From Nitrosopumilales archaeon (GTDB taxonomy: Archaea; Thermoproteota; Nitrososphaeria; Nitrososphaerales; Nitrosopumilaceae), in the NCBI GenBank assembly GCA_900299125.1, contig OMIR01000082.1:1-64000 (forward strand): a stretch of 64,000 nt of DNA. The letters run 5' to 3'. The notes under the pieces are model-generated. The model was not told the origin of the DNA, made no database searches, and was given only the letters and a program-made list of their open reading frames with translations. Within the stretch, counting starts at the first letter, position 1. The number at the start of each line of letters is the position of its first letter. The position numbers and the translations under genes were made by a program. Positions 26,565 through 63,441 of the stretch are shown here, in pieces.

Positions 26565-29021
26565 GTGAAGATAATTCTGTTTCTAGTTTTAATCATTTCT
26601 GGATTTGCAACTGCATTTGCAGAAAAAGGTACATTTGTAGATACCATACAATTCATACAGTATCTAGATGAAAGTACTGCAATAGAAGAAGTCAAAAAGA
26701 AAAATCTGGATATTTATTACTCTAGGATTCCAGCTGAATTAATTACTGATACTGATACAAGTAATCTGAAAATATTTTATGCTACCGGCGGAACATATGG
26801 CATACTGGTTAATCCTGCGTTTGGGAAGGATTTCAATCCATTTTACTACCAAAAAATCCGATTCGCACTAAATTATCTTGTTGATAGAAAATTAATTGTT
26901 GATGAGCTAATGTCTGGCTATGGTCTGACAATGATATCAAACTACGGTCCATTTGATCCTGATTATCTTAATGTTGTTTCGGAACTAGAAAAATTTCACT
27001 TTAGGTACAATCCAGAACTTGCAAATTTCTTGATATCTGAAACCATGAATGAAGCGGGCGCAAAAAAAATCGATGGTAAGTGGTTCTATAATGGTGAGCC
27101 TGTCTCAGTAAATTTTTTTATTAGAAACGATGATCCAGTAAGAAAATCCATCGGCGAGGTAATTTCTTCTGAACTAGAAAAAACTGGCTTTTCTGTGAAA
27201 AAAGAATTTGGCGATCTCAATAAGGCTTACGTTCTAGTTTATGGTTCTAATCCCGCGGATCTCAAATGGAGTCTATATACTGAAGGATATGCAGGGCGGT
27301 CGGCATTTGTAAGATATGATCCTTTGGGGCTTGCTCAGATGTACTCGCCATGGTATTCAAACATGCCTGGATTTAACAATCCTCAATACTGGAACTATGA
27401 AAATTCTTCACTGGATGAGATAACCCAGAAAATCTATTCTGGAAATTACACCTCTTATGATGAACGTACAATATTACTGCGTCAAGCAAGTAATATTGGA
27501 GTAAATGAATCAGTACGAATTTTTCTTGCTGCAAAAGTGGATCCCTTCGTTGCTAACAAAGATGTTGATGGAATAATTAATGACTTTGGAGGTGGCATAC
27601 AGACTAGATTTACTCCTATTAATGCAAGAACGCATGGTGATACTCTCAAAATCGGTGTAAAACAAATCTATCAGGGCGCGTGGAATCCAATCCGTGGATT
27701 GGGAGATGCTTACTCTAAAAATGTCTGGGATGTATTGTATGATCCAGGTATTTTCAAAAATCCTTACTCTGGGCAAAATTTTCCTGTACGAGAAAATTGG
27801 AATGTGGAAACTGCAGGACCTAATGGAAAACTAGATGTTCCAAGTGATGCGATATTTTGGAATACCGCCTCACAAAAATGGGATTCTGCACAAGGAAGAA
27901 AAGCCACTAGTAAGGTCACATATGATCTACTTTGGTCTAATTGGCATAACGGAAAAAAAATGGATATGAATGATGTTTTGTATTCAATTTATTTTGCTCA
28001 AGAATGGGGGTCGGCACAAACAGAAAATGATAAAACTTTTGATCCAGAGTATACTCCTACTGCCAACCCATCCGCTAAAACTCTAGTTGCTGTAAAACCA
28101 ATTGATGATAATACTATTGAAGTTTATCTTAATTACTGGCATTTTCATGATTCTGAAATTGCTGACTGGGGTAGTATCTGGGTTTCTATGCCATGGGAAG
28201 TCATGGCATCAATGGAAAGTGCAGTAATTGACGGTAAAGTGTCATTTTCTAGAACTGACTCTCAATCAAAAAACATTGATTGGATCTCTTTGATCATCCC
28301 CCGTGATGCCAAACTAATATCTGATTATCTTAAAAAATTCTCTAGAACAGGTTACATTCCGCTACCACTAGAGAAATTTGTAACATCGAGTGATTATTCA
28401 AATTCTAGGTATGATAGTACGATATCATGGATTGATGAAAAAAAACACGCTGTAATTAGCAACGGACCATTCTATTTGGATAATTATTCTCCTGAGGCAA
28501 GAACAATCACATTGCGCACATTTGATGATGATTCTTATCCGTATAATTCTGGATATTGGAATAAGTTTGAATCTGTAAAACTACCTCAGATCGTATCTAT
28601 TGATATCCCAACTAAAATAATATCTGGAGAACAAATACGTATTCCGTTTAAGACTCAAAACTCAAATCTAATGTATTATTTTCTAAGTGATTCATCGGGA
28701 ATTGAGGTATCTCGTGGAATTATTCCTATTAAATCAGATGTGGGAGAAATCTTGCTTGATTCTAATACTACAAAAATTATGCAAAATGGTGGACATGACA
28801 TCAAAGTTTATGCCATATCTGATACCGTACTCAAACCTGATATTTACATGACTAGTTTTTACGTAACTGATAAACCAAGTAACACTGAAATTGTTGAAAC
28901 AATTCCATACTCACAAAATAAAACTCAAAATAATTATGGGATAATACTTGTTTTAATTGGAGCCATAATTGTCGGAATAATAATCTATTTTAGAAAATCA
29001 AATCGTTTATCAAAGCACTGA
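26565..29021 (+). CDS. ABC transporter family-5 solute-binding protein with swapped segment order
   Basis: Extracellular binding protein for peptides or similar solutes: GTG start, signal peptide (1-20), 818 residues. The block that is normally C-terminal comes first, with QKIRFALNYLVDRKLIVDEL at residues 96-115 and FRYNPELANFLISETMNEAG. The block that is normally N-terminal follows from residue ~358 (DTLKIGVKQIYQGAWNPIRG; NWHNGKKMDMNDVLYSIYFA near 459; SNGPFYLDNYSPEARTITLR). An Ig-like region (~680-770) and a C-terminal anchor (~785-805) end it. A CTTTAAATT box is ~26 bp upstream. No permease gene is adjacent. Confidence 0.87.
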   Translation: MKIILFLVLIISGFATAFAEKGTFVDTIQFIQYLDESTAIEEVKKKNLDIYYSRIPAELITDTDTSNLKIFYATGGTYGILVNPAFGKDFNPFYYQKIRFALNYLVDRKLIVDELMSGYGLTMISNYGPFDPDYLNVVSELEKFHFRYNPELANFLISETMNEAGAKKIDGKWFYNGEPVSVNFFIRNDDPVRKSIGEVISSELEKTGFSVKKEFGDLNKAYVLVYGSNPADLKWSLYTEGYAGRSAFVRYDPLGLAQMYSPWYSNMPGFNNPQYWNYENSSLDEITQKIYSGNYTSYDERTILLRQASNIGVNESVRIFLAAKVDPFVANKDVDGIINDFGGGIQTRFTPINARTHGDTLKIGVKQIYQGAWNPIRGLGDAYSKNVWDVLYDPGIFKNPYSGQNFPVRENWNVETAGPNGKLDVPSDAIFWNTASQKWDSAQGRKATSKVTYDLLWSNWHNGKKMDMNDVLYSIYFAQEWGSAQTENDKTFDPEYTPTANPSAKTLVAVKPIDDNTIEVYLNYWHFHDSEIADWGSIWVSMPWEVMASMESAVIDGKVSFSRTDSQSKNIDWISLIIPRDAKLISDYLKKFSRTGYIPLPLEKFVTSSDYSNSRYDSTISWIDEKKHAVISNGPFYLDNYSPEARTITLRTFDDDSYPYNSGYWNKFESVKLPQIVSIDIPTKIISGEQIRIPFKTQNSNLMYYFLSDSSGIEVSRGIIPIKSDVGEILLDSNTTKIMQNGGHDIKVYAISDTVLKPDIYMTSFYVTDKPSNTEIVETIPYSQNKTQNNYGIILVLIGAIIVGIIIYFRKSNRLSKH

Positions 29022-48041: not shown

Positions 48042-48872
48042 TCAAAAATCCGTTCTAATTTTTCTCTGCCTATTCAAATTTTTAGGATCTGGTTCAACTA
48101 TTGCATCAATTAGTGACTGGGTGTAAGGGTGTTTTGGATTTGACAAGACCTCGTCAATATCTCCAATCTCAACTATTTTTCCATGATATAGTATTGCAAT
48201 TCTTTGTCCAAAATATCGAGCAGTAGCAAGATCATGCGTAATATACAAAAATGATATTTGGAGTTTTTCTCTTAACTCTTTCATTAATTCTAAAATTTCA
48301 GCCCTGATTGAAACATCTAACATGGATACTGGCTCATCAGCTATGATCATCTTTGGTTTTATTACTAGTGCTCTTGCCAAAACAACTCGCTGACGCTGTC
48401 CTCCAGATAGCATGTGTGGATATTTTTCCATAATGTCATTGGCAGGTTCGAGTTTAACTTGTTTTAAAACATCTTGAACTATTTCTCGTCGTTGCAAAGA
48501 ATTACCAATTTTATAAATTTCCAGTGGCTCAGAAATAATTTGATGAATTTTCATTTGTGGGTTTATAGAGTCGTAGGGATCTTGATACACCATTTGTATT
48601 TCAGCGCGAATTTTTTCTAGCAAATCTGGATTATTTGATATCTCAACACCGTCAAAGATTATTCTCCCAGAATCTGGAATTATGGAATGAAGTATTAATT
48701 TTGCAATAGTTGACTTGCCTGAACCAGATTCACCTGCTAAGACTAGTGTCTGACCACGCTCAATGCTAAAAGAAACATCATCTACTGCTTTGACTAGCGA
48801 TAACTGCCTACCAAAAAAGTTCCTTTTTGAATAATATTTTTTGAGATTATCTATCTGGAGTATTTTTTCCAA
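48042..48872 (-). CDS. ABC transporter ATP-binding protein, oligopeptide (OppF/DppF) type
   Basis: A 276-residue ATPase. Walker A is LAGESGSGKSTIAKLILHS, the Q-loop is QMVYQDPYDSINPQMKIHQI, the signature is PHMLSGGQRQRVVLARAL, Walker B is PKMIIADEPVSMLDVS, and the switch His is in LYITHDLATARYFG. The C-terminal EIGDIDEVLSNPKHPYTQSL motif is specific to peptide/nickel importers. It is the likely energiser for the family-5 binding protein at 26.6 kb, but no permease or second ATPase lies beside it. Confidence 0.92.
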   Translation of the reverse strand: MEKILQIDNLKKYYSKRNFFGRQLSLVKAVDDVSFSIERGQTLVLAGESGSGKSTIAKLILHSIIPDSGRIIFDGVEISNNPDLLEKIRAEIQMVYQDPYDSINPQMKIHQIISEPLEIYKIGNSLQRREIVQDVLKQVKLEPANDIMEKYPHMLSGGQRQRVVLARALVIKPKMIIADEPVSMLDVSIRAEILELMKELREKLQISFLYITHDLATARYFGQRIAILYHGKIVEIGDIDEVLSNPKHPYTQSLIDAIVEPDPKNLNRQRKIRTDF

Positions 48873-61841: not shown

Positions 61842-61950
61842 TTGTGATTTTTGAAGATAATTCGAATAAATACCAAGCTGATCATAATTAAGCTAGGCAA
61901 CTAGGTTCCACATAGAAAATCCAATATACTTGCAGATTACAACCTGTTTG

Positions 61951-63441
61951 ATGTCCACAGCGGCTAGGAGAATTGACGTTTCTGGAGAGGCACCGTTTAA
62001 GCAATCTGGTGTTTATGAGGTAGAAATTTCGATTTGTGATTCTCCACCTTTAAAAGAAGAGATCAGTATGAAACGATTTCCTTCGCTATGGCACGAGCGT
62101 TTTCACTTGCATGTCAAGGATTCAAAATTCACTCAAACTCTAGGTTCTAGCTCAAACCCTATTCCTGATTCTGTCTTTAGACAGTCTGCTGTTTGGATAG
62201 TTGTTAGCGATCAATTCTCATCCATGTATTCAGTCTTTCAATTCCAATTAACTACATCAGATAGTTCTGCCAAAAAAGAAACTATATCATTTTCTGAAAA
62301 TAAATCTGAAACTGGATATCTCGAAGAGCAATCTCCTCGTGAGGAACGCACAAAGAGAACATCACAAGGCTTGCAGGGATTTAGAGGACCATCAGGACCA
62401 ACTGGGCCGCAAGGTGAACGCGGCCCAACTGGACTACAAGGTCCACCGGGTGTTCAAGGCGATAAAGGTCCACAAGGTCCACCAGGCGTTCACGGAGATA
62501 AAGGCCCAACTGGTTTTCAGGGCGACAAGGGTGACAAAGGCCCATCAGGACCACCGGGCGACAAGGGTGAAAAAGGCGACAAGGGAATTACTGGTGATAA
62601 AGGCGACAAGGGTGACAAAGGCCCATCAGGTCCGCCAGGCGACAAGGGTGACAAAGGCCCATCAGGTCCGCCAGGTGACAAGGGCGTTACAGGCCCAATT
62701 GGAATTCAAGGCGATAAAGGTTCGACTGGACTACAAGGACCATTAGGCGACAAAGGAGTAATTGGCCCACCAGGACCAATTGGTGACAAAGGCCCGACAG
62801 GTCCAGTAGGTTCACAGGGTGATAAAGGAATTCAAGGACCATTGGGAGAACGTGGTCCCAGAGGTCCACAAGGCCCAGCTGGCGATAAAGGACAATTAGG
62901 ACCAATAGGACCTGCAGGTGAAAAGGGACCTAGAGGTATTCAAGGTGAAGTTGGTGATAAAGGCCCACAAGGACCACAAGGACCTGCTGGAGAAAAAGGA
63001 TTAACTGGAGTTCCAGGCCCGCAAGGCGAACGTGGTCCGAGAGGTCAACAAGGTCCACCCGGAGAAAAAGGATTAACAGGCCCTACTGGACCACCTGGCG
63101 ATAAAGGTCAGACAGGTCCACAAGGCCCACAAGGTGAACCAGGACCTCAGGGATTAGCAGGAGAACAAGGTCCACAAGGCCCACAGGGAATTCAAGGCCC
63201 ACAGGGTGAGAGAGGTCCTATAGGGCAACGTGGTCCTTCAGGTGACAAAGGCCCGCAAGGCCCACAAGGTCCTGCCGGTGACAAGGGTCCAAGAGGCCCA
63301 CCAGGCCCACCAGGTCCGATGGGTTCGACTGGCATGTCAGATGAGCAAAAAGCACTTTTCAAAGAACTACTAGAGGTTTTGACTTCAAAAAATATCATTT
63401 CCACAGAAGAGCAGATAAAATTAATGAGTTATCTATACTAG
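61951..63441 (+). CDS. Collagen-like protein with 108 uninterrupted Gly-X-Y triplets
   Basis: I start at ATG 61951 ([20 protein letters not shown]); a TTG lies seven codons earlier. A beta-rich N-terminal domain of about 110 residues ([33 protein letters not shown]) and a charged linker precede a perfect collagen region at 62368-63336. GDK occurs 21 times there, with many GEK and GPQ. The end is a short amphipathic helix ([20 protein letters not shown]). No signal peptide or anchor is visible. The triple helix would rely on Lys-Asp/Glu pairs, as in bacterial collagens. Confidence 0.9.
62368..63336 (+). repeat. Collagen Gly-X-Y coding repeat
   Basis: Every third codon is Gly for 108 consecutive triplets. 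Within it a 36-bp unit is repeated head-to-tail at 62605-62640 and 62641-62676 with one base difference. A related copy with several changes lies just upstream near 62525. These indicate recent growth by slippage or unequal recombination. Confidence 0.9.

Follow-up and report, generated by a model that had tools for sequence, protein, structure and literature searches.

A family-5 solute-binding protein with its two halves in reversed order, conserved across the Thermoproteota

Results

A reversed SBP_bac_5 domain

The window, i.e., the whole stretch of 64,000 nucleotides of archaeal DNA analysed here, encodes at 26565-29021 on the forward strand an 818-aa protein with a GTG start, in which the two halves of a family-5 solute-binding protein (SBP; Pfam SBP_bac_5, PF00496) occur in swapped order. 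The order is conserved in relatives, where the gene is accompanied by transporter genes; a few canonical proteins nest among the permuted ones, and C-terminal anchors recur in the permuted families. The sequence supports a circular permutation, with the reversed blocks abutting and the old C- and N-termini joined. The swapped order is ancient and phylum-wide and, as far as the literature was searched, undescribed.

An earlier note, made from the sequence alone, had inferred swapped halves from three motifs placed near residues 100, 460, and 640, which held: RFALNYLVDRKLIVDEL spans residues 99-115, WHNGKKMDMNDVLYS residues 460-474, and GPFYLDNYSP residues 634-643. It had also predicted that the PF00496 profile would match in two reversed blocks. 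Profile positions 148-328 indeed align with residues 25-224, placing the late half first, and positions 28-152 with residues ~459-677 (window 27939-28595); the total of 82.9 bits passes the gathering cut-off of 32.4, with both domain halves present. The same reversal is seen against Thermococcus kodakarensis OppA (PDB 7fi3): a single-sequence phmmer search of the PDB (E=1.3e-48) aligns query residues 368-659 with chain residues 18-309 and query residues 14-282 with chain residues 311-603, and a 25-member profile recovers the same reversed blocks (E=8.7e-98). In a third piece of the latter match, profile positions 312-363 correspond to 7fi3 chain residues 671-722; thus, the old C-terminal end lies directly before the join and the circle closes.

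When the protein was cut at the join and its tail removed, a rotation that amounts to a permutation-aware alignment at the sequence level, a single linear match to 7fi3 was obtained (14-580 to 18-603, E=3.1e-51), and PF00496 scored 95.4 bits in one piece, up from 82.9 bits in two. Only after this in silico rotation is the canonical linear order of the PF00496 halves met; because the halves are reversed, we file the protein as a permuted SBP_bac_5 variant and not as an ordinary member. The blocks meet at a single point, PF00496 position ~148-152, which in divergent relatives lies at canonical-profile position ~229. A chance match is excluded as the source of the reversed blocks. Either a normal topology or a linear match to a different SBP family would have refuted the swap; no full-length match of the latter kind was found (Pfam returned PF00496 only, and the PDB only cluster C structures), and Foldseek covered about half of 7fi3.

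Domain layout and structure model

On the forward strand, a predicted signal peptide (residues ~1-19; 26565-26621), with the cleavage site inferred between ATAFA and EKG and no lipobox seen, is followed by Block B, the canonical C-terminal half (residues 22-350; 26628-27614; PF00496 148-328, 7fi3 311-603). The join between the ancestral C- and N-termini, delimited by block models (residues 351-358; 27615-27638), leads into Block A, the canonical N-terminal half (residues 359-670; 27639-28574; PF00496 28-152, 7fi3 18-309), which bears the WHNG...DVLYS and GPFYLDNYSP motifs. Thereafter come a predicted Ig-like beta-sandwich (residues ~671-770; 28575-28874), a predicted C-terminal transmembrane (TM) anchor (residues ~791-811; 28935-28997), and a basic tail.

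An AlphaFold2 model built from a 59-sequence alignment (pLDDT 80.2, pTM 0.76) shows eight strands by DSSP at residues 675-768 (pLDDT ~85-95), a low-confidence linker at 774-791, and then a long helix. The signal peptide and the TM helix are predicted by both hydropathy and this model, supporting the membrane anchor proposed in the earlier note. The Ig-like domain, also proposed there, rests solely on the predicted eight-strand segment, as Pfam gave no Ig match for the protein. In Foldseek searches, all 50 listed best PDB matches were cluster C SBPs, with 7fi3 at the top (E=5e-21); the alignments span ~306-396 columns each, with TM-scores of 0.26-0.35 on the query and about half coverage, and that to 7fi3 gave a TM-score of 0.35-0.39 over 396 columns, only about half of the chain. 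Since the aligner is sequential and no permutation-aware superposition was made, this half coverage fits a permutation but does not prove it; likewise, the closure of B and A into the two-lobed SBP fold is inferred from a predicted model.

Phylum-wide distribution

Among near relatives, 51 of 61 genomes match, and every complete copy aligns as a single linear match, in the order of the window protein; three genomes (G004, G010, and G012) have partial copies. In a further genome, of the window's own genus, the copy is in two pieces (G003:C29:1526-3945), with the permuted SBP read as two overlapping open frames, a possible frameshift or pseudogene. Matches were found in 176 of 200 genomes at the class level and in 292 of 397 at the phylum level, the weak ones among these being ordinary SBP_bac_5 paralogues. 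Classification of the fetched ORFs with block HMMs yielded 209 in the B-A order (a redundant count), two A-B loci encoding one protein, and a remainder with B only; once duplicates are removed, there are 157 distinct full-length B-A ORFs across the Thermoproteota. Named homologues include those of Candidatus Nitrosotenuis, Nitrosopumilus, Nitrosarchaeum, and Candidatus Nitrosotalea, among others. A-B relatives were rare: only 2 of 348 genomes of the phylum, both of one family, have one. Even the divergent permuted members (L227, L229, L231, and L232) share the breakpoint, with B starting at canonical-profile positions 227-229 and A ending at 221-237, and the gap between block models at the join is 8-20 aa across 173 relatives.

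As the order is kept across a whole archaeal phylum, the swap is real and widespread. The proposed survey of thaumarchaeal homologues thus revealed a phylum-wide order rather than a thaumarchaeal oddity, and the nesting of canonical relatives in the permuted clade, described below, goes beyond what had been claimed. Of the two routes suggested, circular permutation is supported by the abutting reversed blocks and the single linear matches after rotation; a route through duplication and loss of opposite halves remains unproven, and neither tandem BAB nor BABA intermediates occur among the fetched ORFs, in which multiple B matches come from a single B block interrupted by an insertion. The claim that the arrangement was not known to have been described stands insofar as the literature searched, which was open-access only, contained no account of a permuted SBP_bac_5.

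The survey concerns the Thermoproteota, with Euryarchaeota and Asgard archaea outside its coverage. Candidate bacterial permuted relatives, suggested by two-piece tblastn matches of a divergent permuted query to plasmids, were rejected, as the five bacterial loci read (L251-L254 and L256) proved canonical; the Haloferax protein L255 likewise has the canonical order. A record titled 'Gammaproteobacteria bacterium BBSC-SA02' (BMAH01000059.1; L148) carries a 68%-identical thaumarchaeal SBP and is probably mislabelled or contaminated. Elsewhere, an SBP_bac_5 ORF truncated by the start of its locus (L240:1-1461, + strand) has its C-terminus just after NPYYW, without an anchor, and resembles a permuted paralogue that lacks the tether and has dpp genes of its own. 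A distant 2079-aa protein (L040:3817-10056, - strand) combines FG-GAP repeats, SdrD_B, and a permuted SBP_bac_5 with Peripla_BP_6 and ANF_receptor, which are type-1 binding domains, uniting three binding modules in one chain.

Transporter partners

In most loci that cover the flank, dppB or dppC adjoins the SBP gene, often as SBP-dppB-dppC followed by two ATPase genes, and this includes Nitrosopumilales relatives (L161, L172, L177, and L225). The SBP gene of the window genome lies away from the permease genes, and the dpp parts there are scattered, with the cognate DppB, DppC, and ATPases that are adjacent in relatives all encoded: a DppF/OppF-type ATPase with ABC_tran and oligo_HPY domains, a probable partner, lies in the window (48042-48872, - strand), while contig C4 carries dppB and dppC, and contig C63 a further oligo_HPY ATPase gene. 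The window SBP is the only PF00496 gene found in its Candidatus Nitrosotenuis-like genome.

The outer loop between TM1 and TM2 of DppC is ~207-254 residues long in permuted systems, and also in the A-B system L226 and TkOppA-like ones, against 43-54 residues for the first outer loop of canonical DppC in the systems examined, E. coli included. The DppC at L039:3849-5186 (+ strand), like others of permuted systems, has here an extra outer domain that is absent from canonical DppC. The window further encodes, at 61930-63441 (+ strand), a 503-aa protein containing a long stretch of collagen-like Gly-X-Y repeats.

Order of events

Trees were built from rotated permuted sequences aligned with canonical ones, for the whole protein and for each half; the 7fi3 sequence used was copied from HMMER alignments and is partial, lacking residues 604-645. 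The permuted members of the first kind, 7fi3, and an 895-aa A-B relative form one clade (SH-aLRT 97; 100/99 in a later tree), within which 7fi3 and the A-B proteins L272/L273 are nested (nodes 100/98, 100/98, and 100/100), the latter beside permuted L139/L140/L274-L279. As 7fi3 falls inside the permuted clade, its A-B order looks secondary. Forcing a permuted-only clade, with 7fi3 and L272/L273 outside, is 204 log-likelihood units worse (AU p=2.3e-38), a p-value that is merely indicative because the group had been defined with knowledge of an earlier tree. The A-half and B-half trees separately repeat the nesting of the A-B proteins, and this agreement argues against a hybrid origin. By our count, one gain and two reversals make three changes, while an A-B backbone would need about six identical gains; on parsimony, one ancient permutation with two reversals fits better than repeated identical permutations. 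A reversal would be simply another permutation, with the cut placed in the join.

A second permutation and the C-terminal anchors

A second SBP_bac_5 permutation, with another cut at canonical-profile position ~361/374, was recognized in L113 (232-2889, + strand; genome G180) and L257-L271. L113 itself runs from canonical position 374 round to 361, and as a query it matches 17 of 250 genomes of the phylum; full-length members of its type share the breakpoint (start 363-385, end 361-364). A C-terminal TM helix is present in all 14 complete members of this family and in 151 of the 157 of the first, compared to 6 of the 21 canonical proteins of full length that were included, though the sequences are related and the counts are hence not independent. 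Three of those six anchored canonical proteins (Cytobacillus L254, L108, and L110) are the canonical neighbours nearest to the permuted clade; hence, the anchor may predate the permutation.

Discussion

Taking these observations together, we regard it as very likely that the 818-aa protein is a permuted cluster C SBP that acts as a tethered peptide receptor for a DppBCDF-type importer, and that its permutation arose once and was later reversed. In the proposed scenario, a canonical chain would have been cut in the loop immediately downstream of the ...NPxYW motif, with its old C- and N-termini linked by a short linker. The secreted protein would fold into the usual two-lobed binding protein, a closure that is itself inferred, and its new C-terminus would anchor it outside the membrane via the Ig-like spacer and the TM helix. 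There it would catch peptides and pass them to the importer, putatively docking on the enlarged outer loop of DppC; the ligand class is inferred, and neither ligand binding nor transport has been documented for a permuted member. The permutation would put the C-terminal tether in a better place, an advantage that is again inferred. It is envisaged as a single early event in the archaeal clade, later undone in at least two places, the lineage of Thermococcus OppA and one family of Thermoproteota.

The most serious rival to this history holds that the A-B order was kept along a TkOppA-like backbone, making 7fi3 and L272/L273 ancestral, with permutation at the same site many times over. In its favour, the closest outgroups (Cytobacillus, L108, and L110) are canonical, the loop that is cut may be prone to permutation, and the second permuted family shows that permutation can recur. 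However, it demands about six identical events instead of one gain and two reversals, the breakpoint is common to all copies, and the trees of both halves nest the A-B proteins; we therefore deem it unlikely. The function could also be contested, with the protein being a tethered receptor or scavenger, e.g., a sensor or an adhesin, that no longer feeds a transporter. The window gene indeed stands alone between unrelated genes, and a distant relative is part of the 2079-aa fusion with FG-GAP and type-1 periplasmic-binding domains. Yet dppBC adjoin the SBP in most relatives, Nitrosopumilales included, and the window genome, in which no second SBP_bac_5 was found, has kept dppB, dppC, and two oligo_HPY ATPases, leaving little room for this view. 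Finally, the window genome is a draft in 109 contigs, and one might suspect a chance match or an artefact of assembly, frameshift, or annotation. This is all but excluded: the order is the same in single-contig genomes and in more than 150 distinct ORFs, some only about 27-30% identical, and its conservation across relatives rules out an artefact or split gene.

Building on the preferred reading of a single, later reversed permutation, a bolder one may be put forward, for which we see as much reason for doubt as for belief. It posits that the order of the halves is reversible, having undergone one rotation, two back-rotations, and a second independent rotation, as an adaptation to C-terminal tethering. 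The permuted form would have spread through the phylum with enlarged-loop DppC and C-terminal tethers, and been rotated back in Thermococcus OppA and L272/L273.

With a permuted clade, a second permutation, and apparent reversals to compare, the question of why a binding protein should be permuted becomes directly testable: close relatives of both orders are available, including one with a solved structure. Annotation is also affected because linear profiles split the permuted proteins. The findings further bear on peptide uptake by ammonia-oxidizing archaea, this being the only family-5 receptor found in the window genome. As a lead only, Sulfolobus OppASs/SSO1273, a pull-down partner of ATV P529 (PMC4456609), might belong among the permuted SBPs.

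With respect to known systems, the closest solved relative is T. kodakarensis OppA, which was solved with an endogenous pentapeptide and belongs by the tree to the same archaeal subfamily but has the canonical A-B order. With the cluster C SBPs at large (DppA, OppA, NikA, and AppA), the permuted protein shares both PF00496 halves, the same motifs, and, in relatives, dpp-type neighbours; it differs in its reversed halves, its Ig-like spacer (predicted) and C-terminal TM anchor, and the enlarged loop of its partner DppC. A precedent is the glucose-binding TpMglB-2 (Tp0684), a natural circularly permuted, membrane-tethered binding protein of an ABC transporter, for which a 'Type Ic / Cluster Bc' was proposed and tethering suggested as the driver of the topology (PMC4990184). 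Both proteins are circularly permuted with respect to their own canonical class. However, TpMglB-2 is a bacterial lipoprotein with another cut site and a Type I (cluster B) sugar-binding fold, whose criterion the 818-aa protein does not meet, its Pfam match being to PF00496 only and its PDB matches to cluster C. Natural SBP permutation, previously known from one cluster B family, is here extended to a phylum-wide clade in the peptide-binding class.
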